From Synechococcus sp. BO 8801 (lineage in GTDB: Bacteria > Cyanobacteriota > Cyanobacteriia > PCC-6307 > Cyanobiaceae), in NCBI RefSeq assembly GCF_002252675.1, contig NZ_NQKY01000008.1, forward strand, positions 46,317 through 110,316: DNA of 64,000 nt, read 5' to 3'. A model generated the notes under the pieces. That model ran no database searches and had not been told where the DNA came from. It was given only the letters and a program-made list of their open reading frames with translations. This document shows, in pieces, positions 5,537 through 56,194 of this stretch. The translations under genes were made by a program, and so were the position numbers. Within the stretch, counting starts at the first letter, position 1. Each line of letters starts with the position of its first letter.

Positions 5537-6602
5537 AGGCGATGCCGCGGGACTGGAACGCCCGCAGGATGCCCAGATTGATGGCTTGCTGCAGGTCCAG
5601 AAATACCCCCACGTTGCTGTCTGGAACGAAGAACACGAACTGAAACTCCAGAGCGTCGTCAACGAAGCGGGTGAAGTGGCAGCGGTCGAACGTGGCCGGC
5701 GGATGGGCCTGGACGACGTTTTCCACGAGCCCTGGAATGGCGGCGGCTTGCTCCGCCGGCAGTTGGTCGGACACCAGAAGCGTGTGGGCGGCCCGGCGCC
5801 GGGGCAGATCACCGAAGTTGCGGATCGTCTTCTGAAGCAGCTCCTCGTTGCCGATCACGATCCGCTCTCCGCCCAGGCTGCGGATGGAAGACGAGCGGAT
5901 TCCCACCCGCTCCACCGGCCCGAGGACATCGGCGAATCCGATCAGATCGCCGATCTGGAAAGGCTTGTCGATGACGATGGTGAGGTAGCTGAGGAAGTGG
6001 CTCAATGGCCCCCGCAGGGCCAGTCCAAGCCCGATGCCGGCACCCGCCAGTGAGGCGTAGATGGCGCCGAGTGGGACCCCCTGCTTCTGAAGAAACACCA
6101 GGCTCCCGAGCCCCCAGAAGAGGGCCCGGATCATTGGAGCCAGGGCCCTGAGGGTGCTGGTCTGCTCCTCCCTGCCCAGGCGCTGCAGAGACCGTTCCAG
6201 CAGCAGGAGCAGGCTGCGGTTGATCAGCCGCACCACCAGCACCACCGCCACCAGCAGGGCGGCGCCCTCCACCAGCCGATCGGGTCCCGGATCGATCCGC
6301 AGCACCTCCCAGCCGCGCACCAAGGAGCGCCAGCCCCAGACCACCATGGCCAGATAACCCAGCGAGGCCAGGCTGCGCAACAGCAGGGGAGCGATCAGTC
6401 CGTCCGGCAGGGTGTCCGGTCTGGGAACGGCACGCCGCAGCCAGCGGCTCAGTAACCGCACCAGAAGCCACACGCCCAGCGAACCCATCAAAACCCTGGC
6501 GAGGGCCATGAGCAGGGCGAATCCCGCGGCCTGCATCGATGGGTTCAAGAGCGGGTCCATCAGTCCAAGCAAGGATTCTGATCGGCTGATGTCCATCACC
6601 AC
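5484..6602 (-). CDS. MscS-family mechanosensitive ion channel
   Basis: A 372-residue membrane protein with several N-terminal helices and the MscS core: pore helix AGAGIGLGLALRGPLSHFLS, then the beta domain (DKPFQIGDLIGFADVLGPVERVG, GGERIVIGNEELLQKTIRN). It likely opens under membrane tension to release solutes during hypo-osmotic shock. It lies 23 nt downstream of a second, larger MscS gene on the same strand, so the two may be co-transcribed. Its 3' end overlaps lnt on the other strand by 53 nt and codes for a Pro-rich tail. Confidence 0.88.
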   Translation of the reverse strand: MVMDISRSESLLGLMDPLLNPSMQAAGFALLMALARVLMGSLGVWLLVRLLSRWLRRAVPRPDTLPDGLIAPLLLRSLASLGYLAMVVWGWRSLVRGWEVLRIDPGPDRLVEGAALLVAVVLVVRLINRSLLLLLERSLQRLGREEQTSTLRALAPMIRALFWGLGSLVFLQKQGVPLGAIYASLAGAGIGLGLALRGPLSHFLSYLTIVIDKPFQIGDLIGFADVLGPVERVGIRSSSIRSLGGERIVIGNEELLQKTIRNFGDLPRRRAAHTLLVSDQLPAEQAAAIPGLVENVVQAHPPATFDRCHFTRFVDDALEFQFVFFVPDSNVGVFLDLQQAINLGILRAFQSRGIAFTAPPQDPAAPHPPPSP

Positions 6603-6625: not shown

Positions 6626-8203
6626 TCAGGCTTCCCCGTCCGACGACGAAGCTGGCGGCGATGCTGGCGGTGGGGTCAGCCGACTCAACAAGGCGTCGGT
6701 GATGGCGAGGGGGAAGGTTACGTTGATGCTTTCGTTGCGCAGATGCAGATCTCTCTGGGGGAACGGAATGGTCAATTCGTGACGGCGCAGGATTGCTTCG
6801 ATGCGGAAGTTGAGCTCGCTGCGGATCTCGTACTGTCGCCGGGGCTGGTTGATCCAGACCAGCAACTGAAAATCCAGGGAACTCTCCCCGAAGCCCTTGA
6901 AGAACACCTGGGGTGATGGGGTTGCCAGGATGTCGGAGACATCCTGGCAGGCCTCCAGCAGGGCCTCACGCACCACCTGGCAATCAGAACCGTAGGCCAC
7001 TCCCACCGGAATCTTGAGACGTGCCACTGAACTCCCGTGGCTCCAGTTGACGACCCGGGACTCAAGAAACTCCACATTCGGAACGATGATCGAGATGCGG
7101 TCGAGGGTCACCACCTCGGTGCTGCGCAGATTGATGCGGGTGACGGTGCCCTGGAGGTCGCCCACTTCGACGAAATCATTCACTTTGATCGGCCGTTCGA
7201 ACATGATGATCAGGCCACTGATCAGGTTCTTGGCGATCCCCTGCAGGCCAAGCCCCACTCCCACCCCCAGGACGCTGGCGAACAGGGCCAGGGAGGTGAG
7301 ATCCAGGCCCCACAGCTGCAGCAGCACCAACGTGCCGAGGAACAACAGGCCGTACTGAACGATGAAGGCGATGGCCTCCTGGGAGCCGGGTTCGATGCCC
7401 GTGCGCTGCAGGACACGGACCCTGAGCAGGTCCTTGAGCAACGCCACCCCCCGCACCAGCACGAGGAACAGCCCCACCAGGACGACGGCGTCGAGCACGG
7501 AATAGCGGCGTCCCCCCAGGGGCAGGAAGGGGGATCCCAGGCTCTCGGTGAGGGCCTCCAGCAGACGGCTTGTCAGCAGCCGGGTGACCGGGAAGAAGCT
7601 GGAGATCAAAAGGATCGCGGCCACCCAGAGTCCAAGCCGCAGCACCACCAGTGCCCCATGGAGCAGCCAGTCCTTGGGGCCCAGAGGTTGGCTGCTGCCG
7701 GGTTCACTTCCCGACGACTGGGTGAGGGCCGAGGGCAGGTAGCGCCGCCACAGCAGCCACAGGAGCCGCTGCAGCAGGAGTGTTGCCCCAAGGATCCCCA
7801 GGGCAAAGGAGATCATGCGAACCACGTGGGCGGGCTGTCGCTCCGACCGTCCCCTGTTGATGGCTGCGGTGAGGCTTTGGCGCCACACCTCAGCCTGGCC
7901 CTGCACCGAAAGCCCCTCCTGCGTGTCGCGGCGGGTCACGGTGAGGATCACTTCGTCATCGAGGGTGATCACCGGCAGGTTATGGAGCTCCTGCACCCCG
8001 ATCCTGGCCGGGCTACGGGTCGCCATCGCCTCCTGCAGCAGACGGTTGGCCCGCTCCACCCGTTGCTCGCTCGAGAAGTCCTTGGAGGTGCTGACCGGGA
8101 ACAGGCGGATGCCGTCCAACTGGAGGTAGGCCGTGGGTTCCGGCCGCTCCTGGCCAACGGCTCCATGCAAGGGGGCCAGAACGAGCAGAAGGGCGAGGGC
8201 CAC
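6626..8203 (-). CDS. MscS-family mechanosensitive channel with periplasmic N-terminal domain
   Basis: A 525-residue MscS homologue. It begins with a signal-like hydrophobic stretch (ALALLLVLAPLHGAVGQE), then a soluble domain of about 120 residues, several membrane helices, and the MscS core (SVLGVGVGLGLQGIAKNLIS, MFERPIKVNDFVEVGDLQGT, ISIIVPNVEFLESRVVNWSHG). The start is uncertain: 8203 is a GTG, and the frame stays open upstream with basic residues that would make a better signal-peptide n-region but no obvious start codon. The partner channel gene follows after 23 nt. Confidence 0.87.
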   Translation of the reverse strand: MALALLLVLAPLHGAVGQERPEPTAYLQLDGIRLFPVSTSKDFSSEQRVERANRLLQEAMATRSPARIGVQELHNLPVITLDDEVILTVTRRDTQEGLSVQGQAEVWRQSLTAAINRGRSERQPAHVVRMISFALGILGATLLLQRLLWLLWRRYLPSALTQSSGSEPGSSQPLGPKDWLLHGALVVLRLGLWVAAILLISSFFPVTRLLTSRLLEALTESLGSPFLPLGGRRYSVLDAVVLVGLFLVLVRGVALLKDLLRVRVLQRTGIEPGSQEAIAFIVQYGLLFLGTLVLLQLWGLDLTSLALFASVLGVGVGLGLQGIAKNLISGLIIMFERPIKVNDFVEVGDLQGTVTRINLRSTEVVTLDRISIIVPNVEFLESRVVNWSHGSSVARLKIPVGVAYGSDCQVVREALLEACQDVSDILATPSPQVFFKGFGESSLDFQLLVWINQPRRQYEIRSELNFRIEAILRRHELTIPFPQRDLHLRNESINVTFPLAITDALLSRLTPPPASPPASSSDGEA

Positions 8204-8262: not shown

Positions 8263-8916
8263 TCAGGTGAGCACCGGCAGGGAGCCGTGGCCGGCCGGCC
8301 GGGAGACCAGGATCTTGCGCAGCGCCAGGCGGGCGGCCCCATCGGGGTGCTCGGGCTGGCCGATGGGACCGCCTTCCGTGCCCGTGTCGTCGGGCTCCGC
8401 CATGGTCCCGGCCCCCTCCAGGGTTTCGTCCTGGGGATCGAGAAGCTCGATCACGGCCTGGCGAACACCCGCCAGGCGCCGCTCCAGCCTCCGCCGTGCC
8501 CGCTGCTCCTGCTCCAGCTCCTGCAGCAGCGCCTGCCGCTGGCGTTCGGCGGCCTCCTCGCGCCGGAGGTCCCGCTCCCGCTCGGCCTCCTCCAGGGCGG
8601 CCTGCTCCGCTTCGGCGATGGCCAGCTGCTGCCGGATGGCCTCGTGGAAGCGCTCCACTTCCGCTTCCGCCAGGCGCCGGCCCTCAAGGGCCTCGGCCAG
8701 CTCGGCCGCGAGCCGTTCCCGCTCCAGCCGGGCCTCCTCCAGCTGGGCCGCCACCTCATGGGCCCTGATGGCGGCGGCGGACTCCAGGTGGCGACGGAAA
8801 CGGCGCTCCTGCTCCAGTTCCTCCCGCAGGGCGTCGACTTCGCTGGTGGCGGCGGCGATCAGGCTCTGGGCCTGGGCGGTGAGGGCCTCGACCGCCTGGG
8901 TGAAGGAGCTGGACAT
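8263..8916 (-). CDS. Coiled-coil hypothetical protein
   Basis: A 217-residue protein dominated by a continuous charged coiled coil from about residue 15 to 155, rich in Glu, Arg, Ala and Leu heptads (for example LEEARLERERLAAELAEALE). A Gly/Pro-rich tail follows. There is no signal peptide, membrane segment or recognisable domain. I chose the ATG before SSSFTQAVEAL, because the longer frame upstream is low-complexity and unlike a conserved start. The MscS gene lies 59 nt downstream on the same strand. Function unknown; a structural or scaffolding role is possible. Confidence 0.7.
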   Translation of the reverse strand: MSSSFTQAVEALTAQAQSLIAAATSEVDALREELEQERRFRRHLESAAAIRAHEVAAQLEEARLERERLAAELAEALEGRRLAEAEVERFHEAIRQQLAIAEAEQAALEEAERERDLRREEAAERQRQALLQELEQEQRARRRLERRLAGVRQAVIELLDPQDETLEGAGTMAEPDDTGTEGGPIGQPEHPDGAARLALRKILVSRPAGHGSLPVLT

Positions 8917-9013
8917 CGGCGTGCGCAGGGGAAGGTGCTGTCCTTGCTCTAAGTCTGCGGGGGGAGGCCTGTCGGTAGCGAAGCGCTCCACCACCGGTGG
9001 GGTTCCGCTGGCC

Positions 9014-10024
9014 TCAGCCGCCGTCGAGGCGCGAACGGCGCAGCAGCACTGAGGGGGTGATGCCGTAGCGCTCCCGAAAGCTGGCAGCGAAGGAGGGCAT
9101 CTGAACGAAGCCGTGGCGGCGGGCGATGGCGGCCACGGTCTCGCCCGGCTGGGCCCGCAGCAGATCGGCGCGCACCCCGCTCAGCCGCTGGCGCTTCACC
9201 CACTGCATGGGGCTGCAGCCGAACCGCCGCTGGAACAGAACCTGCAGGTTGCGCTGCGAGTAGGCGCTGCGCCGACTGAGCTCCGTGGGGGTGATCGGTG
9301 TGTGCAGGTTGGCCTGGATCCACTCCAGCAGGTCGTCGAAGGGGCGATCGCCGCGGTGGTCGGGAACAGCCCGATCCCTTCCCTTCAGCGTCTCCGGGCA
9401 GACGATCGCGGCCACCAGCCGGAACAGCAGATCTTCCAGCTGGCAGGTCCTGAGTCCTCCCACCGACCGCAGCAGCGGGGCCTCCAGCATCCGCAGGGCC
9501 AGGTGGAGATGGCGCAGCAGGTCGGCCTGCTCGGGTGAGGCGCTGCCGTCCACCCGCAGGGTGCGCTCGAAGGCCGGCGCCCGGCCACCGGGGCCGTCGC
9601 CGAAGCCGCCCATGGCCAAGGCCGTCTCGGTCAGCCGGCGGCGATCGAGGCAGATCATCACCTCCTCGAAAGTGCCTGTGCTGGCCTTGAAAGCGGCGCC
9701 GGGCAGGTAGGCCGCCATCGGGCCGGCCTCGAGCTTCAGCCGCTGGCCGTCGCTGGTCACCTCGCCAACGCCGGACAGGGGCAGGGTGAGGGTCGCGACG
9801 GGGGAATCGTCGAAACCGATCTCCAGGGGGGAGTGGCGGCTGCAGGACACCGCGATCTGCCCCACGTGGAGGATGCCGCTGCGATGGAAGAAGCCCCCGC
9901 TGCGTTGACTCTCCAGGAAGGCGTTGAGGGGGAAGTCCCGCGCCACCCGATTGAGCAGGGCGTCGGGGTCCCTCACCTCCACCGCCCGTGACTCCAGCAG
10001 CGTCAGCGGGGCTGCAGCCGTCAT
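9014..10024 (-). CDS. AraC-family transcriptional regulator
   Basis: A 336-residue regulator with an N-terminal sensing region of about 220 residues and a C-terminal AraC/XylS double helix-turn-helix domain (LEWIQANLHTPITPTELSRR, NLQVLFQRRFGCSPMQWVKR, VAAIARRHGFVQMPSFAASF, ERYGITPSVLL). The ATG at 10024 overlaps the stop of the upstream pilin-like gene by 4 nt (ATGA), which supports this start and suggests translational coupling. The N-terminal domain shows no known ligand motif. The target is unknown; the coupled gene itself is the first candidate. Confidence 0.9.
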   Translation of the reverse strand: MTAAAPLTLLESRAVEVRDPDALLNRVARDFPLNAFLESQRSGGFFHRSGILHVGQIAVSCSRHSPLEIGFDDSPVATLTLPLSGVGEVTSDGQRLKLEAGPMAAYLPGAAFKASTGTFEEVMICLDRRRLTETALAMGGFGDGPGGRAPAFERTLRVDGSASPEQADLLRHLHLALRMLEAPLLRSVGGLRTCQLEDLLFRLVAAIVCPETLKGRDRAVPDHRGDRPFDDLLEWIQANLHTPITPTELSRRSAYSQRNLQVLFQRRFGCSPMQWVKRQRLSGVRADLLRAQPGETVAAIARRHGFVQMPSFAASFRERYGITPSVLLRRSRLDGG

Positions 10025-46768: not shown

Positions 46769-48034
46769 TCAGCGGAAGTTGTTGTTGTTTCTGTTGCCGT
46801 TGAATGTATCTCGGAAGAAATAATAGGAGCTGGCGGCCTGACTGAGGGGAACGATGACCTGATTGATGACGTCGAGGGCCTCGGCGTAGAAGGTGCGATT
46901 GACGATGATCGTGTCCCTGTCCCGGAGCGGGGGATTCAGCCCCTTGGAGACGCCGATCCCATCCCGGTAGCTGTAGACCTCCCGGGTGGTGGTGCCGTTG
47001 CGGTTGAGGCGGACGAGCTCGATGTCGTTCTTGTTGGCCCGCCAGTTCTCCGCACCACCGGCCCGGAAGATGGCCTCGGCCAGGGGGGTGTTGGCGGGAA
47101 GGCTGAGGTTGCCGGGGCTGCGGACCTCGCCGATCACCGAGACATTGATGGTGGCCGGGGCCAGGTTGGTGGCGCCGATCTGGAGGATTTCCTCGGGGAT
47201 CAGATCCTCCGTGCGGGCGACCACGATCGTGTCGCCGTCGAACAGGATCGGGTTCTGCCGCTGGTTGCCGACCTGGAAGACCTGGGCCAGGTCCAGAACG
47301 GTCTGCTTCTGACTGCCGTCGGGCCCGGCCAGACGCCGCAGCAGCACCTTGCGGATGTCGGCGTTCAGGGTGACGCCGCCGGCGGTCTGGATCGCGGAAA
47401 CTGGTGTGGAGAAGGAGGCCAGGGGGTAGAGGCCAGGACGACCCACCTCGCCGATGATGGTCACCTTCACGGGGCGGGGCGAAACGAGGCTGAGGATCAG
47501 CTCAGGCCGCACCAGCTGCTTCGCGTAGAGCGAGGTGAGCCAGCGGGTGGCCTGGCCGATGGTCAGGCCGGTGAGCTGCACCGATCCCAGGAGCGACAGG
47601 GTCGAAGTGCCGTCGGGAAGGATGGAGACCGCACCGCCGATGGCGGAGGCGGAAGGGTCGGTGAAGGTGAGTTGCAGACCATCCCCGGGGCCGAGGACGT
47701 AAAGATCGTTGTAGACCTCCGTGACCGTGAGGGGCAGAGGGGCCGAGGAGGCGGGGCCAGCCAGGGGAGCGGCGCTCACGGCCGCGGCACCGCGCCAGGG
47801 GGAATGGGGCGCCACCCCCTGGGGCACCGAGGCCTTCAGTCCTGTCGGAGCCACCATCGCACCGACCAGACCCAGTGCGCCGAGGGAGGAAAGACGCCGC
47901 CGGATCGTGGGGCGAAGGCTCCTGCCACGGGAGGTTCCGTCAGATGCTGCAGATCCCTGACCTGCGGCAGATTCCCGGCGTGCCGACTGGCCTGCAGATC
48001 CCTGGCGTACAGATGTTCTGGGAGGAGAAGCCAC
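46769..48034 (-). CDS. Wza-type polysaccharide export protein (SLBB domains)
   Basis: A 421-residue outer-membrane polysaccharide secretin-like protein. A signal or anchor (LSSLGALGLVGAMVAPTGLKA) is preceded by about 45 hydrophilic residues, so the true start may be later. The export motif LYVLGPGDGLQLTF begins the Poly_export domain, and two SLBB domains follow (VTIIGEVGRPGLYPL, VSVIGEVRSPGNLSLP). It ends in an Asn-rich tail (GNRNNNNFR). It is divergent from the tyrosine-kinase gene and heads a three-gene unit with the two hypothetical envelope proteins. Confidence 0.9.
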   Translation of the reverse strand: MASPPRTSVRQGSAGQSARRESAAGQGSAASDGTSRGRSLRPTIRRRLSSLGALGLVGAMVAPTGLKASVPQGVAPHSPWRGAAAVSAAPLAGPASSAPLPLTVTEVYNDLYVLGPGDGLQLTFTDPSASAIGGAVSILPDGTSTLSLLGSVQLTGLTIGQATRWLTSLYAKQLVRPELILSLVSPRPVKVTIIGEVGRPGLYPLASFSTPVSAIQTAGGVTLNADIRKVLLRRLAGPDGSQKQTVLDLAQVFQVGNQRQNPILFDGDTIVVARTEDLIPEEILQIGATNLAPATINVSVIGEVRSPGNLSLPANTPLAEAIFRAGGAENWRANKNDIELVRLNRNGTTTREVYSYRDGIGVSKGLNPPLRDRDTIIVNRTFYAEALDVINQVIVPLSQAASSYYFFRDTFNGNRNNNNFR

Positions 48035-48136
48035 CGAAGGACATTAATCGGATTACCACCATAGACGCCCGAGTCAAGGGGGCATTCTTTGCTGGTTGCC
48101 ATTATCATCGGCTCAACTTTCCCTGCGGTTCATAAC
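48035..48136. promoter_or_regulatory. Divergent promoter region of the export and kinase genes
   Basis: A locally AT-richer stretch between divergent genes. On the minus strand TTGACT (48072-48077) resembles a -35 box, with a weak -10 (TAATCC at 48050-48055, spacing 16). An AAGGGGG stretch precedes an alternative TTG start of the kinase at 48089. The promoter assignments are weak. Confidence 0.3.
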
Positions 48137-50716
48137 GTGACAACGACGGGTGTTCCTCCTGAGACCTTTCCGGGTGGAACCGCGCGCCCGCTGTCCCTTC
48201 CCGCCGCGGGTGGTCCGGGTCCAGGCGCTTTCGATCCGTCGCAGCAGAGCCCCCTCAGCCCCATCGGCGAGGGCCAGTCCGGCGGCGGCGGCCTGGGGGG
48301 CCTCGTACGGACGGTCAAGCGCCGTCAGTCCATCTTTCTGATCACCTTCGCGGTGGTGACCGGCGTTCTGGCGATCAACACGCTGCGTCAGCGCATCTTC
48401 TCCCCCGTCTACCAGGGGGGGTTCCAGATGCAGATCAGCAACCCCTTCGACAACCCTGGCGGCGGCGGCGGCGGCGGTTCCGTTGAGACGATCGCCCGCA
48501 GCGAGATCAAGACCGATGTGCCCAGTCTCATCGTTCTGATGCGCAGCCCCCTGCTGCTCGGGCCGGTCGCCCAGCGTCAGGGCGTGCCGCTCCGGGCCCT
48601 GGAGAGCAACCTTTCCATCAACCAGGAGTCGGCCCGGGTCGACAACGTCCTCAACGTGTCGCTGCGCTGGCCCGATCCAGCCAAGGGCAAGGCGATCCTG
48701 CGGCAGCTCGCCAAGGATTACACCGCCTTCTCCCTGACCCAGCGCCAGGCGGCGGTCAACTCCGGCGTCCGCTTCCTCGACGAGCAGGCCCCCGCGATCG
48801 AGGAACGGGTCACCAAGCTCTCCCAGGAGATGCTCAGGTTCCGGGAACGCAACAATTTCGTTGACCCGGCCACGGCGGCCAGCCAGATCCTCGGGGCCCG
48901 CGAAGGTCTGGTCAACCAGCTGCGCACCCTTCAGAACGAGCAGGTGCAGCTCGACAGCCAGCTGAAATCGATCCAGACCGGCAAGCTGCAGTTCACCCCC
49001 AGCGGTGCCCCCACCGCCCTTGAGCAGCTGGGTCGGAACAGCGTTCTGGTGCCGGGCAGGGGGGGATCTTCCGGAGCCGAGGCTGCCAGCGGCACCAAGA
49101 CGCCCCTTGACCTCCTCAACCAGTTTGAACAGGAACTGGCCACCGCCAAGGGCACGTTCAAGGACAACTCTCCGATCGTTCAGTCCCTGATCGCCCGCCG
49201 CAACCAGTTGCTCCCCGTTGTGCAGCGGCAGGCTGCCGACGCCGTCAAGGCCCGGCTGCTTTCCAACGTGGCCCAGCAGGATGAGATCAACCGTCAGATC
49301 CTTCTGCTGAGCGAGAACTTCCGGAACAATCCCCAGAAGATGTCGGAGTTCGAGAACATCAACCAACGGCTCTCGATCGCCAGGGAGCAGTACTCCTCCT
49401 ACATCCAGGCCAGGGAGCGTTACCGGCTCGAGATGGCCCGTTCCATTTCCCCCTGGGAAGTGATCGGACCTCCCGATTTCGGCGGCAGTCCGGTGGAGCC
49501 CAACATCCAGCGCAACCTGCTGAGGGCGATCATGATCGGTCTTCTGGCCGGTCTCGGCGCCGCCATCCTCCGCGAGCGGACCGACAACGTTTTCCACACC
49601 CCCATGGAGGTGGAGAAGGACCTGCAGCTGCCGGTTCTGGGTCTGATCCCCTACCTGCCCCTCGAGCCCGGTGTCGACATCGCCACCAGCATCTCCAAGA
49701 TGTCCTCGAGCGAGCGCTTCGCCATCAAGGAGTCGCTGCGCAGCCTGTTCACCACCTTCCGACTGCTCCGCGCCGACAGCAGCATCCGCATGGTGGGCAT
49801 CACCTCCTCCACCCAGGGGGAAGGCAAGTCCCCCGCGGTCGCGGTGTTTTCCCGCACCCTGGCCGACCTCGGCCTCAAGGTGCTCGTCATCGACTCCGAC
49901 ATGCGGCTGCCGATGCAGGCCCGCTACCTGGGTGTGGAGCAGGGCGACGGCCTTTCCACCCTGCTCTCGGATTCAACGCGCAAACCGACGGATTTCATCC
50001 ACTCCATCGCCGAGAACATGGACGTGCTTCCGGCCGGCCCGAAGCCGCCCGATCCGGCCAAGCTGCTCAACTCAACCCGCTGCAAGGAAGTCATGGACGA
50101 GATCCGTGCCCTTCCCGGCTACGACATCATCGTCGTGGATGCGCCTCCCTGCCTGATGCTGGCCGATCCGATCCTGCTGGGAGAGAAGCTCGACGGCATC
50201 CTCTTCCTGGTCGGCCTCGGCAAGGTGAGTCGTGAGCTGGCTCCCCAGGCCAGCCGTCGCATCCGGGCCTCCGGGGTGGATGTGCTCGGCATCATCTGCA
50301 ACCAGGTCAATTTCCCCAGCCGCCTCAACGATTACGGCTACGAATACGGCTACTACTACCACTACGCCTACGCGTCGGCGTCGGGTTACGCCAAGAGCGC
50401 CAGCGAACCTTCCACCGGTGGATTCGGCAGTTATGTGCAGCGCTATCGCGACAGCTACATGAAGGGTGCCGCGACCAATTCCTACATCTCCGCCCGCTAC
50501 AACGAGGGCGAATCCGACGTCAAGACCTACTACCGCGAGGACGAGGATCAGGGGTCTGCGCCCGTCGCCTCCAATGGCGGCCTCGGACCCAGCGCCGGCT
50601 CCTCCAGTTCCCTGCCTCCCGCCGAGAGGGTTTCCTCCCGTCGCCACCGTCCCTCCAGTGATGGTGGTGGCGGCCCGATGGGCTGGCTGCGCAAGCGCTT
50701 CGGGAACAGGGGCTGA
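48137..50716 (+). CDS. Wzc-type polysaccharide co-polymerase and tyrosine autokinase
   Basis: About 859 residues. An N-terminal Gly-rich leader and membrane helix (SIFLITFAVVTGVLAIN) are followed by a Wzz/PCP periplasmic domain with coiled coil, a second helix (LRAIMIGLLAGLGAAIL) and a BY-kinase domain: Walker A SSTQGEGKSPA, Walker A' VLVIDSDMRL and Walker B IIVVDAPP. Right after the ATPase core is a tyrosine cluster (nine Tyr within YGYEYGYYYHYAYASASGY), then further Tyr-rich tail. It likely controls polymer length and export through autophosphorylation. A TTG at 48089 is an alternative start. Confidence 0.92.
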   Translation: MTTTGVPPETFPGGTARPLSLPAAGGPGPGAFDPSQQSPLSPIGEGQSGGGGLGGLVRTVKRRQSIFLITFAVVTGVLAINTLRQRIFSPVYQGGFQMQISNPFDNPGGGGGGGSVETIARSEIKTDVPSLIVLMRSPLLLGPVAQRQGVPLRALESNLSINQESARVDNVLNVSLRWPDPAKGKAILRQLAKDYTAFSLTQRQAAVNSGVRFLDEQAPAIEERVTKLSQEMLRFRERNNFVDPATAASQILGAREGLVNQLRTLQNEQVQLDSQLKSIQTGKLQFTPSGAPTALEQLGRNSVLVPGRGGSSGAEAASGTKTPLDLLNQFEQELATAKGTFKDNSPIVQSLIARRNQLLPVVQRQAADAVKARLLSNVAQQDEINRQILLLSENFRNNPQKMSEFENINQRLSIAREQYSSYIQARERYRLEMARSISPWEVIGPPDFGGSPVEPNIQRNLLRAIMIGLLAGLGAAILRERTDNVFHTPMEVEKDLQLPVLGLIPYLPLEPGVDIATSISKMSSSERFAIKESLRSLFTTFRLLRADSSIRMVGITSSTQGEGKSPAVAVFSRTLADLGLKVLVIDSDMRLPMQARYLGVEQGDGLSTLLSDSTRKPTDFIHSIAENMDVLPAGPKPPDPAKLLNSTRCKEVMDEIRALPGYDIIVVDAPPCLMLADPILLGEKLDGILFLVGLGKVSRELAPQASRRIRASGVDVLGIICNQVNFPSRLNDYGYEYGYYYHYAYASASGYAKSASEPSTGGFGSYVQRYRDSYMKGAATNSYISARYNEGESDVKTYYREDEDQGSAPVASNGGLGPSAGSSSSLPPAERVSSRRHRPSSDGGGGPMGWLRKRFGNRG

Positions 50717-50754
50717 GGGTTCGGTTCGTTTCAGCTCAGGGTTCGCTGCAGGTG

Positions 50755-50775
50755 AGGGCCCGTTTCAGGGGCCCT
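50755..50775. terminator. Hairpin between convergent kinase and phosphatase genes
   Basis: A perfect 7 bp stem (AGGGCCC/GGGCCCT) with a 7 nt loop containing the stop codon of the phosphatase gene, 39 nt past the kinase stop. No long T run, so a bidirectional terminator is plausible but not certain. Confidence 0.45.
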
Positions 50776-51352
50776 TCCCCCCGCCAAGGAGGGGCTCCAC
50801 CGGCCCCGTCTCCAAACCGTCACCCATGGCTGGGCGGGCGCAGAGCAGCATTTCGAGCATCACCAGGTGGTCATAGATGGGCATGGCCATCGGGTGGCAG
50901 CGACGCACCCAGGCCAGGGCCGCCAGCGGATCGATGCCGCGCAGTCGGGCCGTCAGGCCAACCGCCAGAAGGGGGGAGCGTTCGTACCCCGCCATGCAGT
51001 GCAGATAGATGGGAGCGGCCTGGTTCACCAGCGCTTCCGCCCTCGCCAGGGCCAGGGCCAGTCGCTCCTGGCGCAGCGGCTCCTGCTGCCTGTGGTCGGG
51101 CAGGGAGACCCGGTCGCTGCTCCAGCCGGGGGGAACGATCAGGGCGCTTTCCTCCTCCGGATAGCAGCAGCTGAAGCGGCTGCGGATCCCGGCCTCCTCC
51201 AGCTGTTGCCAATGCCTGGCCGTGCGCGGCATGGGACCGATCGCCAGCTGACCGTTGAGCACCCAGCTGCAGGGCAGGGAGCGGTCGGGCATCGGCGGCA
51301 GGGGCCGGTCCTGCCTCAGGCTATGGAGAAACTGCCGCAGGGGGCCCATCAT
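50765..51352 (-). CDS. Cys-based protein phosphatase (dual-specificity/tyrosine type)
   Basis: A 195-residue phosphatase. The signature IYLHCMAGYERSPLLA carries Cys119 and Arg125 in the CX5R loop, with the probable general acid Asp86 in RVSLPDHRQ. No signal peptide, so cytosolic. I chose the ATG at 51352 (MMGPLRQFLHSL); the longer frame is unlike a protein start. It lies 37 nt after the exosortase-associated gene on the same strand and converges on the tyrosine kinase. It is a natural candidate to reverse kinase autophosphorylation. Confidence 0.85.
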   Translation of the reverse strand: MMGPLRQFLHSLRQDRPLPPMPDRSLPCSWVLNGQLAIGPMPRTARHWQQLEEAGIRSRFSCCYPEEESALIVPPGWSSDRVSLPDHRQQEPLRQERLALALARAEALVNQAAPIYLHCMAGYERSPLLAVGLTARLRGIDPLAALAWVRRCHPMAMPIYDHLVMLEMLLCARPAMGDGLETGPVEPLLGGGKGP

Positions 51353-51389
51353 CGGCGTGCCCTCGACGGGTGGCGCTTGTCGGTTGCGC

Positions 51390-52055
51390 TCACGTCCGGG
51401 TTCGCAGCACCGGCTCCACCAGGGCCAGCACCTGCTGCCAGAGGCGGTCGGAAGGGGGCTTTCCCTTGGGCCCACGCAGGCTGATCAGGGTGCAGGCATA
51501 GGTGCGATGGGGCTGGAGCCCGATCACCTTCTCGATGGCGGACTCCCTCCCGACCGCCAGACGATCGGCGAGGGTGGTGAGCTGTTCACGGGTGACCCCG
51601 AAGGGCTTCTCCGGGCCAGGGCCTGACATCAGGCAGGTCTGGAGGGTGGGGCGGTCCTTGGTCAGTCCCCTTGCCGTCGGGACCGGGCTGCCGATCAGGC
51701 GGCGCTGGATGAGATTCAGGCTGGCCTGGTCCCGCCCGATGACACTGGTCTGGAAGTTGAAACGCTGGCGCACCGTGCCGCCCATCAGGGTCAGCTCGAA
51801 CCCCTCCTGCAGGGGCAGGACGACCGGCGCCGTGGTGGAAAGTTCGTAGCTGCGCTTCGCCGGCCAGGGGGGGGCGAGGCTGGGGGCCGTCTCCGGCAGC
51901 AGCTGGGCCCCGCGCAGCGCCGCTTCCAGCTGCTCAGCCGGCAGGGCACGCGGTGCCGCGGGCCAGCGCGGCAGCAGGATCGCCTGGGTCGCCAGAAGGG
52001 CCGCAGCGACGGCGAAGGTGCCGTACCAGCGGACCAGAAGGGGAGGGGTGATCAC
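51390..52055 (-). CDS. Cyanoexosortase A system-associated protein
   Basis: A 221-residue protein with one N-terminal membrane helix (WYGTFAVAAALLATQAILLP) and an external domain (SYELSTTAPVVLPLQEGFEL, RPTLQTCLMSGPG, GREGLQ-like IEKVIGLQPHRTYACTLISL). Size, topology and position match the partner proteins encoded next to cyanoexosortases. The GTG start at 52055 overlaps the exosortase stop by 4 nt (GTGA). Its biochemical role is not established. It may help sorting or substrate presentation. Confidence 0.75.
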   Translation of the reverse strand: MITPPLLVRWYGTFAVAAALLATQAILLPRWPAAPRALPAEQLEAALRGAQLLPETAPSLAPPWPAKRSYELSTTAPVVLPLQEGFELTLMGGTVRQRFNFQTSVIGRDQASLNLIQRRLIGSPVPTARGLTKDRPTLQTCLMSGPGPEKPFGVTREQLTTLADRLAVGRESAIEKVIGLQPHRTYACTLISLRGPKGKPPSDRLWQQVLALVEPVLRTRT

Positions 52056-52990
52056 GCTCCTTCCCCCGGTTGCGGCGGGGCGGGCAGGGGGGGAAGTTCC
52101 CGCTCGAGCAGCCGCATGTAGACCATGCCGAAGATCATCACCGCCACTCCGGAAAAGACCAGGGAGCCGGTGCTCTCGTGGAAGAAATCGAACAGCCAGC
52201 TGCCCTTGCCTTGGCCGTTGCCCGCGAACACCGCCAGCAGGGCGATGCGGAAGGTGTTGCAGACCAGGCCGATCACCGGCGCCATCAGCAGCACCACGGC
52301 ACGGCTGGTCCAGGAGCGGATCGGAAAGGCCAGCAGGAAGATGACGCCCACGCACAGGATCTGGGCCATCAGGTCCACCCCGTTGCAGGGGCCGAGCACC
52401 CGTACGCCGCCGCCTGGCAGCAGCACGCTGCGAGCGTTCACCGTGACGTCGAGTCCGAGCACGCTCAGCCAGAGACCGGAGAGGCTCGCGGTGAGCAGGC
52501 TGATGGGGGCTTCCGGCAGGGTCCGCATCAGCAGGGCGAAGCTTGGAAGCAGCATCAGGCAGAGCAGCGGATCGCGGAAACGGCCCAGGCTGGCCGGTTT
52601 CTCCGCCATCAGACCCAGGCTGAGGCCGCCGATCGGCGCCAGGGCGAACAGCAGACCGTCCCAGTGGAGGATCAGCGCCGAGCGGGCCAGGACCCAGACC
52701 AGCAGCAGGCTGCCGATGACCAGTCCCCAGGCGCCTGGCCTGGGCCGGAGGTCCTCGAACTGGTCCTCCATGCAGATCACCGCCCCCCCCCACACCAGCA
52801 CCGCGAACACGGTGATGTGCTCGCTCTGGCTGCTCTGGAAGACGGCGATGTTCTGGACCGCCACCGCAGCGGCCAGGGCCAGCCAGAGGTTGCGGGGCGT
52901 GGGCGGGGGAACGGCCGGGATCGCGGCCCGCCAGCCCGGAGGAATCCTCTGAAGGAGGCCGCTGAAGAGTCGCTCGATGGTGTTGCTCAT
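52052..52990 (-). CDS. Cyanoexosortase A
   Basis: A 312-residue polytopic membrane transpeptidase of the exosortase family, predicted to cleave PEP-CTERM sorting signals and pass proteins to the cell surface. The catalytic triad is visible: Cys202 in LGPCNGVD, Arg248 in CNTFRIALL and His271 in FFHESTGSLVFS. About eight hydrophobic helices. The 4 nt overlap with capD upstream and the associated gene downstream defines a coupled operon. No protein with a PEP-CTERM tail is encoded in this window. Confidence 0.88.
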   Translation of the reverse strand: MSNTIERLFSGLLQRIPPGWRAAIPAVPPPTPRNLWLALAAAVAVQNIAVFQSSQSEHITVFAVLVWGGAVICMEDQFEDLRPRPGAWGLVIGSLLLVWVLARSALILHWDGLLFALAPIGGLSLGLMAEKPASLGRFRDPLLCLMLLPSFALLMRTLPEAPISLLTASLSGLWLSVLGLDVTVNARSVLLPGGGVRVLGPCNGVDLMAQILCVGVIFLLAFPIRSWTSRAVVLLMAPVIGLVCNTFRIALLAVFAGNGQGKGSWLFDFFHESTGSLVFSGVAVMIFGMVYMRLLERELPPLPAPPQPGEGA

Positions 52991-54924
52991 CGGGCCAGGG
53001 CGTCGAGCAGAGGGGAGGCCGGGAGACCCTCTTCAGGATCGTATTCCGGGACCAGGCGCCGCAGCAGCTGGCTCGAGGCGGCTTCGTCCCACTGGGCGAG
53101 CGCCTCATGCAGCTGCTGGATCAGGGGCCCCAGCTGTTCGCTGTCCCGATGGGGTTCGGTGGCCCTGCGGATCAGCGGGTGCTGGGTGGGCTGGTCGGCG
53201 GCGCTGATCAGGAGCTCCTCGTAGAGCTTTTCCCCCGGCCGCAGGCCGGTGTACTGGATGGCGATGTCCCCGTCGCTGTTGTGCTCGTCGCGCACCCGCA
53301 GCCCGGACAGCTCGATCATCTGGCGGGCCAGGTCGGCGATCCGGACCGGTTCGCCCATGTCGAGCAGGAAGAGATCGCCGCCCATGGCCATGCCGGTGGC
53401 CTGCAGCACCAGCTGGACGGCCTCCGGGATGGTCATGAAGTAGCGGGTGATGGCCGGATGGGTGACGGTGACCGGCCCACCTCTGGAGATCTGCTGATGG
53501 AACAGGGGGATCACCGAGCCGGAGGAGCCCAGCACGTTGCCGAACCGGACCATCGAGAGGATCGGGCCACCGTCCTCGATCTCGGCAGCAGCGGCCTGGA
53601 TCAGCAGTTCGCAGATGCGCTTGCTCGCTCCCATGACATTGGTGGGGCGAACGGCCTTGTCGGTGGAGATCAGGGTGAGCCGGCTCACGCCCGAGGCCCG
53701 GGTGGCGGCGATCACGGCCTCGGTGGCGCCGATGTTGTTGGCGATGCCGGCGCAGAGGTTGGCCTCAACGAGGGGAACGTGCTTGTAGGCGGCGGCATGG
53801 AAGATCGTGTCGACCCGGTGCTGACGGCAGATCAGGGTGAGGCGGGCCGCGTCACAGGCATCGCCGAGGACGGCATGGAGCTCGACGCCGCAGGGTTTGG
53901 AGCCCAGCTCCCGCTCGATGGCGTAGAGGGCGAATTCGTTGCGCTCGACCAGCAGCAGCCTGGCGGCACCCAGGCCCACGACCTGGCGGCACAGCTCGCT
54001 GCCGATCGAGCCACCGGCGCCCGTCACCAGCACCACCTTCCCCTCGACGCCGGCCTTGAGCAGCACCGGGTCGGGGTTAGAGGGTTCGCGGCCAAGAAGA
54101 TCCTCGATCGCCACCGGCTGCAGGTCGGAGACGATCCTCTGGCCGGTGGCCATCTGGGCCAGCGAGGGGACCGAGAGGACTTCCAGTCCCCGGTGGGTGA
54201 GCTGATCCACCAGCAGGCGTTTGCGCCGCCGCGACATGGTGGGCATCGCCAGCAGGACCTTGCGGACGCCGTGACGCTCGATCAGACGGGGCAGCCGCAG
54301 GGGCGAGTGGATGGCCATGTTCTGGAGGGTCCGGCCCTGCAGGCCCTCATCGTCATCAAGGAAGCCGACGATGCGGAAGCGGGGGTCGTTGCGCAGGGCC
54401 AGCAGCAGACCCATGCCGGAGGCGCCGGCGCCGTAGATGAGGGTGCCATCACCCTGGGAGCCGCCGGGGGAGTGGTTCTCCCGTTGATCGAGGTGATGGA
54501 CCAGGACGTCACGCAGCACGATGCGGCTGGCGATGGCCCCGCCGGTGAACAGCAGCCAGTAGAGAATCCAGAAGGATCTTGGTGGCTGGGCACCGCCGAT
54601 CAGGGTGCTGCTCAACAGCAGGATCAGCACCATCGCGCCGGAGCGGGGCACCAGCCCGTAGAGGGAGTGGCTGCCGGCGTAGCGGGTGAGCCCCCGATAC
54701 CAGCCCGAGACCACCAGGACGGGCAGGCCGGTGATGACGGCCAGGGGCAGCAGCAGGATCGTGGAGGGCATGAAGCCCTTCAGGGTGGTGGCGTCCGGCA
54801 GACGCAGGATGAAGGCGCCGAGATAGGAGGCGACGATCATCAGACCATCGAAGACCACCAACAGCAGCCGGCGGGCCAGCAGCTGCTTCTGCACGTAACG
54901 AAGAAATGAGAGCTGGGGAATCAA
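52987..54924 (-). CDS. Membrane-bound nucleotide-sugar dehydratase/epimerase (CapD/WbpM family)
   Basis: A 645-residue protein with four N-terminal helices (RLLLVVFDGLMIVASYLGAF onward), a first Rossmann region (GTLIYGAGASGMGLLLAL) and a C-terminal SDR domain (VVLVTGAGGSIGSELCRQ). The catalytic stretch STDKAVRPTNVMGASKR has the Met-x3-Lys arrangement of the UDP-HexNAc 4,6-dehydratase branch. It probably makes a 6-deoxy-4-keto sugar for surface glycan. The start is TTG at 54924. It is first in the operon with exosortase, partner and phosphatase. Phased 11 bp repeats lie 35 nt upstream. Confidence 0.92.
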   Translation of the reverse strand: MIPQLSFLRYVQKQLLARRLLLVVFDGLMIVASYLGAFILRLPDATTLKGFMPSTILLLPLAVITGLPVLVVSGWYRGLTRYAGSHSLYGLVPRSGAMVLILLLSSTLIGGAQPPRSFWILYWLLFTGGAIASRIVLRDVLVHHLDQRENHSPGGSQGDGTLIYGAGASGMGLLLALRNDPRFRIVGFLDDDEGLQGRTLQNMAIHSPLRLPRLIERHGVRKVLLAMPTMSRRRKRLLVDQLTHRGLEVLSVPSLAQMATGQRIVSDLQPVAIEDLLGREPSNPDPVLLKAGVEGKVVLVTGAGGSIGSELCRQVVGLGAARLLLVERNEFALYAIERELGSKPCGVELHAVLGDACDAARLTLICRQHRVDTIFHAAAYKHVPLVEANLCAGIANNIGATEAVIAATRASGVSRLTLISTDKAVRPTNVMGASKRICELLIQAAAAEIEDGGPILSMVRFGNVLGSSGSVIPLFHQQISRGGPVTVTHPAITRYFMTIPEAVQLVLQATGMAMGGDLFLLDMGEPVRIADLARQMIELSGLRVRDEHNSDGDIAIQYTGLRPGEKLYEELLISAADQPTQHPLIRRATEPHRDSEQLGPLIQQLHEALAQWDEAASSQLLRRLVPEYDPEEGLPASPLLDALAR

Positions 54925-54958
54925 TCGTTCAGTTCGGCGGTGATCGACGAATCAGGAA

Positions 54959-54991
54959 ATGCAGTGGGGATGCAGTGGGAATGCAACGGTG
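54959..54991. repeat. Three phased 11 bp direct repeats upstream of capD
   Basis: ATGCAGTGGGG, ATGCAGTGGGA and ATGCAACGGTG follow directly on each other. An 11 bp period places the ATGCA cores on about the same face of DNA, as in direct-repeat sites for OmpR-type response regulators. They end 35 nt before the TTG start of capD. Confidence 0.7.
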
Positions 54992-55180
54992 AAAAAAACA
55001 GCTGCGGCGAAGAGAAGGAAGCGACGTCTGAATGGCTGCCCACCAGTGTTGACTTACCTCGATGACTTGCCCGTGCAACGCTTCCGCTCAAGCGAACAGG
55101 AGGCCAGCAGATGCATGAGAGGGGTGATTGGCGCCGACTGGACGGAGCAAGGCTAGGCAATCACATGGAGATCGTCATTC

Positions 55181-55199
55181 TCACACACCAATAGTGTGA
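55181..55199. promoter_or_regulatory. Short dyad TCACAC-N7-GTGTGA
   Basis: A perfect 6 bp inverted repeat with a 7 nt spacer, between the WecA-like gene end and the capD promoter region. The arms and spacing resemble a CRP-type site (TGTGA-N6-TCACA) in reversed orientation, so no regulator is named. No T run follows, so it is not a clear terminator. Confidence 0.3.
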
Positions 55200-55255
55200 T
55201 GCCGGAATGGATCATGGCCGTGGCAATACCTGCACCTTTTGACGTTACTGCCCAT

Positions 55256-56194
55256 TCAGGGGGAGAAGGGGACGGCCTGGTGCCGATCGAGCCACAGGCC
55301 CAGAGCCAGCTCCAGCAGCAGCAGGCCGAGCTCCAGGGGCAGGCCCTGGAGGAGCAGGGCCGCCCCCAGCAGGGCGGTGGCGCCGATGTAAAGCAGGGCC
55401 ACCCGGGCATGGGGCCAGCCGGCCTGATGCAGGCGCTGATAAAGGTGCAGGCGGTGGGCCTGGAAGATGGGTTGCCCCGCAGCCAGCCGGCGCAGGACGC
55501 AGAGGCAGGCGTCCCCCAGCAGCGGGAAGCCCGCCAGCAGCAGACCCAGGGCCAGGGCTGGCGTGGCCTGCTGCAGCACCATCCCGGCGATGACCGCCCC
55601 CAGGAAGGTGCTGCCCACATCCCCCATGAACACCCGTGCCGGGCTCCAGTTCCAGGCCAGGAAGCTCAGCAGGGCTCCGATCAGCGGCACCAGCGCGTGG
55701 CCGCCATCGGGGGTCATGGCCAGGAAGGCCACGATCAGCAGCACCGCGGCGCAGCCGGCGACGAGGCCGTCGAGCCCGTCGCTGAAGTTGACGAAGTTGA
55801 TCACCGCCGTGGCCGCGAACACCGCCACCGGCACCAGCCACCAGGGCAGGGCCAGGGGTGAGATCGCCACCAGCGCCAGGGCCGTGGCGATCTGCACGCC
55901 GTAGCGCCAGGCGGCCGGCAGATCGAGGCGGTCGTCCAGCAGGCCCACCAGGGCCAGCGGCAGACAGATCAGGGGGACCCAGGCCGGCCAGCCCTCCCCG
56001 GCGAACGGAGCCAGTCCGCTGCCAACGAGGACGAAGGCCAGCCCCCCGCCCCTGGGGGTGGGTCGCTGATGGGAGCTGCGGGCGTTGGGCTGATCCACCA
56101 GCCGGCGCCGCAGCAGGGGCAGGAGCCGGTGCAGCAGCAGCGCGCCGAGGCCGGCGCCCAGCAGCAGGAAGGCCAGGCCGTGCAGGGGGGTCAT
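55256..56194 (-). CDS. WecA/MraY-type undecaprenyl-phosphate sugar-1-phosphate transferase
   Basis: A 312-residue polytopic membrane enzyme that starts surface glycan synthesis by moving a sugar phosphate to undecaprenyl phosphate. Motifs: GLLDDRLDLP (Mg-binding Asp pair), INFVNFSDGLDGLVAG, ARVFMGDVGSTFLGA and FQAHRLHLYQRLHQAG. The HRLHLYQRL motif fits the WecA rather than the MraY branch. The ATG at 56194 overlaps the epimerase stop by 4 nt (ATGA). The glycan repeat made here is probably exported by the Wza/Wzc proteins nearby. Confidence 0.92.
   Translation of the reverse strand: MTPLHGLAFLLLGAGLGALLLHRLLPLLRRRLVDQPNARSSHQRPTPRGGGLAFVLVGSGLAPFAGEGWPAWVPLICLPLALVGLLDDRLDLPAAWRYGVQIATALALVAISPLALPWWLVPVAVFAATAVINFVNFSDGLDGLVAGCAAVLLIVAFLAMTPDGGHALVPLIGALLSFLAWNWSPARVFMGDVGSTFLGAVIAGMVLQQATPALALGLLLAGFPLLGDACLCVLRRLAAGQPIFQAHRLHLYQRLHQAGWPHARVALLYIGATALLGAALLLQGLPLELGLLLLELALGLWLDRHQAVPFSP

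Follow-up and report, generated by a model that had tools for sequence, protein, structure and literature searches.

Gene content and conservation of the exosortase locus

An exosortase gene and its neighbours were analysed in a window of 64 kb, the whole stretch of DNA under study, from the genome of Synechococcus sp. BO 8801. The exosortase is encoded between a CapD/PglF-type nucleotide-sugar dehydratase and an exosortase partner protein, and a gene for a dual-specificity-like protein phosphatase follows that of the partner (Table 1). The first-pass annotation of this DNA described four genes linked by 4 nt overlaps and a 37 nt gap, and this was confirmed by the coordinates and the junction sequences, which are ATGA for dehydratase/exosortase and GTGA for exosortase/partner, with 37 nt from the partner stop to the phosphatase start. 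A convergent wzc gene ends 48 nt from the phosphatase stop codon, with wza beyond it. The dehydratase has the architecture expected of the CapD/PglF type, in which a membrane and CoA-binding-like half is followed by a Polysacc_synt_2 domain. Judged by their spacing, the four genes may form one operon. No sigma-70-like promoter was found in a promoter scan of positions 50500–55500; two terminator-like sites were detected in this interval, both within coding sequence and one on the strand of the four genes.

Table 1. Genes at and around the exosortase locus, in window coordinates, with the evidence for each assignment
Feature	Coordinates	Strand	Evidence
CapD/PglF-type membrane nucleotide-sugar dehydratase	52987..54924	-	PF02719 375.4 bits (cut-off 20.2); CoA_binding_3 PF13727 33.9 bits
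Exosortase, picocyanobacterial clade near cyanoexosortase A	52052..52990	-	PF09721 97.4 bits (cut-off 25.7); motifs; tree
Exosortase partner protein, GTG start	51390..52055	-	homologs 3' of exosortase in 33/35 named loci
Dual-specificity-like protein phosphatase, ATG start	50765..51352	-	HCMAGYERS motif; phmmer match to DUSP23
Wzc-type polysaccharide co-polymerase / tyrosine autokinase	48089..50716	+	TIGR01007 118.9 bits (cut-off 108.05)
Wza-type polysaccharide export protein	46769..48034	-	SLBB and Poly_export domains above cut-off
WecA/MraY-type polyprenyl-phosphate sugar-phosphate transferase, upstream	55256..56194	-	PF00953 101.5 bits; in 24/35 named loci

Among 35 named loci that have a related exosortase, some of them truncated at contig ends, 24 contain all four genes. 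Taken singly, partner homologs occur in 33 of these loci, wzc in 31, phosphatase homologs in 29 and CapD in 25. The nearest named records were Cyanobium sp. N.Huapi 1H5, Aphanothece cf. minutissima CCALA 015 and Microcystis elabens FACHB-917. When the same test was applied to 20 loci fetched from a sample of the family Cyanobiaceae, the partner was found in 12, the phosphatase in ten and CapD in seven. The retention of gene order across loci indicates that the arrangement is not due to chance, and the counts from both sets of loci indicate that the exosortase and its partner are a stable core with CapD and the phosphatase as later or looser companions. The placement of the exosortase in an exopolysaccharide (EPS) locus, as part of a conserved gene block, is supported.

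Tailed proteins in this genome and their co-occurrence with the exosortase

Curated PEP-CTERM models (TIGR04155 and PF07589) gave matches in this genome that were all below cut-off. The best of these sub-threshold matches were genuine C-termini, VPGPLPILGAGVAFGFSRRLRRRI and two similar ones, and a tail model built from these three was searched against the genome. Significant matches were obtained at 16 places, consisting of 15 full open reading frames (ORFs) and one remnant (L026), which was excluded from the 15. The search for PEP-CTERM tails that the first-pass annotation had proposed therefore yielded nothing above curated cut-offs but did yield 15 ORFs with a Pro-Gly-Pro (PGP) tail. The tail consensus, VPGPLPxxGAAAAFGxSRxLRxR, has the layout of PEP-CTERM with Pro-Gly-Pro replacing Pro-Glu-Pro. 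V-P-G-P-L-P was invariant in the 15 intact tails, all of which have a basic end after the hydrophobic stretch. A signal-peptide-like N-terminus was detected by script in 13 of the 15 proteins and by eye in L013, while the locus of L021 is cut. Several of the tailed bodies come from families known for exosortase tails: one is ScyD/ScyE (299 bits, cut-off 80), and two show a sub-threshold resemblance to the 'cistern' PEP-CTERM family. Two further ones are DUF1194 proteins. The remnant (G000:C12:59794-59847) is clustered with three intact tailed genes (L016, L017 and L020), which suggests that substrate genes have duplicated and decayed locally.

None of these places is on the window contig (C3), where the tail model gave no match at E<=10, and none was found among the window ORFs. 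Relaxing the pattern to P-x-P returned 13 rows in the window, every one in a GC-rich frame unlike protein. The tail model and the ORF scan therefore agree with the earlier statement that the 64 kb window codes for no sorting substrate. This absence is a limit of the window and not of the genome, and the suggestion of a sorting system without substrates did not survive the discovery of 15 intact tailed proteins elsewhere. An orphan or decaying exosortase, retained merely because it lies in an EPS block, would account for the lack of tails in the window and for the silence of the curated PEP-CTERM models across the genome, but is hardly credible given the 15 intact proteins, the invariant catalytic residues of the enzyme and the co-occurrence of tail and exosortase described below. 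This explanation was rejected once the tails were found, and would regain ground only if tails and enzyme turned out to have nothing to do with each other.

To relate tails to enzyme, 151 Cyanobiaceae genomes were sampled, with the clade exosortase defined as a match at E<=1e-24 confirmed by tree position. It was present in 19 genomes, all of which also encode tails (19/19), and tails were found in only four of the other 132 (Fisher p 1e-20, a value that ignores kinship). Contrasts in the presence of exosortase and tail were also observed within four genera (g18, g30, g35 and g45), which argues against a pure kinship effect. In distant relatives, genes for tailed proteins adjoin the exosortase gene (L101 and L105, one each; L102, L103, L104 and L144, two each), and in genome G102 the sole tail is encoded roughly 1 kb upstream of the exosortase. 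The L144 contig is binned as Thiodictyon, a gammaproteobacterium, and carries a clade exosortase at 7001-7807 with Pro-Ala-Pro (PAP)-tailed genes at 5687-6217 and 8640-9539; this is either a misplaced contig or a gene transfer.

These data indicate that the locus probably represents a variant exosortase system, here termed exosortase/"PGP-CTERM", within a conserved Wzx/Wzy-type EPS export block of a Cyanobium-like freshwater picocyanobacterium. Four genomes with tails and without the clade exosortase weigh against this interpretation: G096 and G103, which are 85 and 88% complete, had no exosortase match, and the exosortase of G037 and G083 belongs to a second clade. Taken with the confinement of both features mostly to the same genera, these genomes would fit a scheme in which processing of the tails falls to a different membrane protease or sortase and the link to the exosortase is a habitat correlation. 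Such a scheme is very improbable in view of the contrasts inside the four genera, the tail genes that adjoin the exosortase and the alignment of the tails with PEP tails at all but the Glu position.

Divergence of the exosortase and of its putative recognition signal

The founding paper describes Pro-Glu-Pro as nearly invariant, interprets the triad as a sign of contact with the enzyme, and reports C-x-G, N-x-x-R and H-x-x-x-G motifs in the latter (PMC1569441). The exosortase of the window has these motifs as C202-N-G, N245-x-x-R248 and H271-x-x-x-G275, with C202, R248, H271 and G275 invariant among 17 rows. As in the PEP-CTERM/EpsH system set out in that paper, three motifs, an EPS context, a tripartite tail, many substrates per enzyme and substrates encoded at a distance are found; unlike in that system, the tails have Pro-Gly-Pro or Pro-Ala-Pro (PMC1569441). 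A simple hydropathy profile gave six segments above threshold, and the EpsH type has about eight membrane helices.

The first-pass name of cyanoexosortase A holds only approximately. This is the nearest curated enzyme family, TIGR03763 being the top NCBIfam model for the clade members scanned, and the tails align with those of TIGR04155 along VPxPxxxLGxxxAxGF. However, the exosortase scored 129.5 bits against the TIGR03763 cut-off of 150, it has C-N-G where cyanoexosortase A has C-S-G, and the cyanoexosortase A partner (TIGR04153) had no match anywhere in the genome at E<=10. The score on the CrtB model was 43.4 bits (cut-off 300). A phylogenetic tree resolved three groups. CrtA of other cyanobacteria comprised 30 rows (support 100/99) and excluded the window enzyme, a second clade from Cyanobiaceae comprised 10 rows (100/100), and the PGP clade comprised 39 rows and one long-branch row (99/92). 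The name cyanoexosortase A was rejected on the basis of the position of the window enzyme in this tree and the sub-threshold score. Genomes with the second Cyanobiaceae clade (L108, L109, L051-L053, L055-L057, L059 and L243) mostly lack PGP tails. Among 79 exosortase rows counted, the catalytic Cys and Arg were present in all and the His in 78, the remaining row ending before this position. At the position that follows the catalytic Cys, Asn predominates in the PGP clade (34 of 39 rows), Ser in CrtA (29 of 30) and Thr in the second clade (8 of 10). This position is a candidate specificity site, although clade-specific residues can reflect plain descent.

Genomes that host the CrtA clade carry PEP tails. 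Outside Cyanobiaceae, P-E-P was found in 28 of 28 best tails read (from 30 tail loci of the class sample, two being too short to read). Within the family, 20 of 30 tail loci were read, giving P-G-P in 19 and P-A-P in one, and 14 tails near exosortases comprised nine P-G-P and five P-A-P (one a repeat of the same gene). The middle position of the Cyanobiaceae tails read was thus Gly or Ala and never Glu, and the tails otherwise align with cyanobacterial PEP tails. The occurrence of P-A-P in L103, L100 and L144 suggests that the middle residue needs to be small rather than specifically Gly. When the PGP model was applied to 194 genomes of the class, clear tails were found in G000 and G005 only, with three partial matches near E 1e-3.

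On balance, it appears that the picocyanobacterial exosortase signal has changed from Pro-Glu-Pro to Pro-Gly-Pro/Pro-Ala-Pro, that C-S-G at the catalytic Cys has become C-N-G to match, and that the partner belongs to a new family. Some features of the sampling count against this: the family tail search used a PGP-trained model, so that PEP tails there could be under-counted, the full PEP-model search covered this genome only, and the class sample contained just two genomes of the clade. An ordinary cyanoexosortase A acting on ordinary PEP-CTERM proteins, with Gly arising by drift and specificity unchanged, would agree with TIGR03763 as the top model and with the shared tail layout. It is rather unlikely, because Gly was present in 15 of 15 tails here and Gly or Ala in other family tails against PEP in 28 of 28 outside the family, and because the enzymes form separate clades with different residues after the catalytic Cys. 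The curated models tested overlook the PGP-CTERM system, and no description of a PGP-CTERM tail, or of exosortase/PEP-CTERM in Cyanobium or picocyanobacteria, was found in a search limited to open-licence papers.

Proposed roles of the phosphatase and partner, and implications

Pfam matches of the phosphatase were to dual-specificity families only, all sub-threshold, and a phmmer comparison with human DUSP23 gave E 6e-8. The HCx5R[ST] loop was conserved in all 39 phosphatase homologs at these loci, the window protein having HCx5RS. Homologs were detected in 37 of the 151 Cyanobiaceae genomes, many without the clade exosortase, and all 20 fetched copies located away from exosortase loci were accompanied, within the stretch retrieved, by a homolog of wza or wzc. 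Several exosortase loci lack the phosphatase. As the phosphatase tracks Wza/Wzc and not the exosortase, a role in dephosphorylating the convergent Wzc tyrosine kinase is the better interpretation. In Synechocystis, the Tyr-rich tail of Wzc is dephosphorylated by Wzb, a low-molecular-weight protein tyrosine phosphatase (LMW-PTP; PMC6562117). The present locus similarly pairs a tyrosine kinase that has a Tyr-rich tail with a phosphatase; unlike Wzb, the phosphatase is dual-specificity-like (PMC6562117).

The C-terminus of the window Wzc is Tyr-rich (NDYGYEYGYYYHYAY). A Tyr cluster, defined as at least five Tyr in 30 residues, was present in 43 of 47 Wzc proteins with a phosphatase in the locus versus two of six without (p 0.003, ignoring kinship; eight named loci judged to be the same genomes as family loci were left out, as was L207, where wzc is cut off). 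In L096-L099, exosortase loci without the phosphatase, the Tyr-rich end of Wzc is largely lost (maximum of 1 to 4 Tyr per 30 residues). Several observations do not favour the assignment to Wzc: the Tyr cluster is poor in the phosphatase-positive Wzc of L101, L215, L218 and L226, L108 and L109 have a cluster and no phosphatase in the locus, and two LMW-PTPs are encoded elsewhere in the genome (PF01451 matches on C43 and C2 only, none on the window contig), one of which could be the true Wzb. Because of these two LMW-PTPs, the convergent Wzc is a likely but not a secure substrate.

It had also been proposed that sorting, glycan synthesis and phosphorylation are controlled together. This was supported in part only: the phosphatase follows Wza/Wzc (20/20), and CapD adjoins the exosortase in some loci of the clade but not in others (25 of 35 named and 7 of 20 family loci). 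A stronger form, in which the four genes are one regulatory unit and the phosphatase directly controls sorting or the dehydratase, draws on the tight spacing and on the complete set in 24 of 35 named loci; it is improbable given a phosphatase that occurs beside Wza/Wzc without the exosortase and is absent from several exosortase loci. The distribution fits a phosphatase that would act as a Wzc/Wzb-like export switch and share the operon by happenstance.

The partner protein has an N-terminal membrane helix followed by an alpha/beta domain, and matched no NCBIfam family at E<=10 and no Pfam family at E<=0.01. Its predicted structure (predicted local distance difference test score, pLDDT, of 75) gave nothing convincing in Foldseek (best E 0.026). 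With VIA-align, the top match had a Z of 6.3 (1vr8, root mean square deviation 4.2, 114 aligned), followed within about 1 of Z by SciW, LpqN, MTC28 and others. Several of these presumably share a Mog1/PsbP-like fold, and SciW binds the membrane segment of its client. As a Z under 8 may reflect a common arrangement only, no conclusion was drawn from these matches on the fold or action of the partner.

A model for the locus can be proposed in which Sec-exported proteins, encoded by genes scattered over the genome, would be retained in the membrane through the C-terminal tail. The exosortase (Cys/Arg/His) would most likely recognise V-P-G-P-L-P, the short hydrophobic stretch and the Arg-rich end, and cut near Pro-Gly-Pro, so that the proteins are released or re-attached at the envelope. 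The processed proteins may then act at the surface, where they would meet polysaccharide exported by Wza/Wzc. The partner may be a membrane-anchored periplasmic accessory protein, CapD may provide a modified sugar for the glycan, and the phosphatase would most likely remove phosphate from the Tyr-rich tail of Wzc in the role of Wzb. In the nearest experiment available for cyanobacteria, on Nostoc punctiforme, deletion of crtB altered the PEP-CTERM exoproteome and adhesion to polysaccharide (PMC12188702). Wza, Wzc and Wzy in the locus, a partner gene downstream and a link to surface polysaccharide are common to both systems; in Nostoc the substrates are PEP proteins and an aminotransferase gene lies upstream, whereas here CapD lies upstream and the enzyme is of another subfamily (PMC12188702).

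The puzzle of the missing substrates is solved at genome scale by the tail variant, which also brings to light a group of freshwater picocyanobacterial surface proteins that escape curated models. A dual-specificity-like phosphatase in place of Wzb is a testable case, and a clade whose tails consistently have another residue instead of Glu, and whose enzymes are altered beside the catalytic Cys, offers a natural experiment on exosortase specificity.

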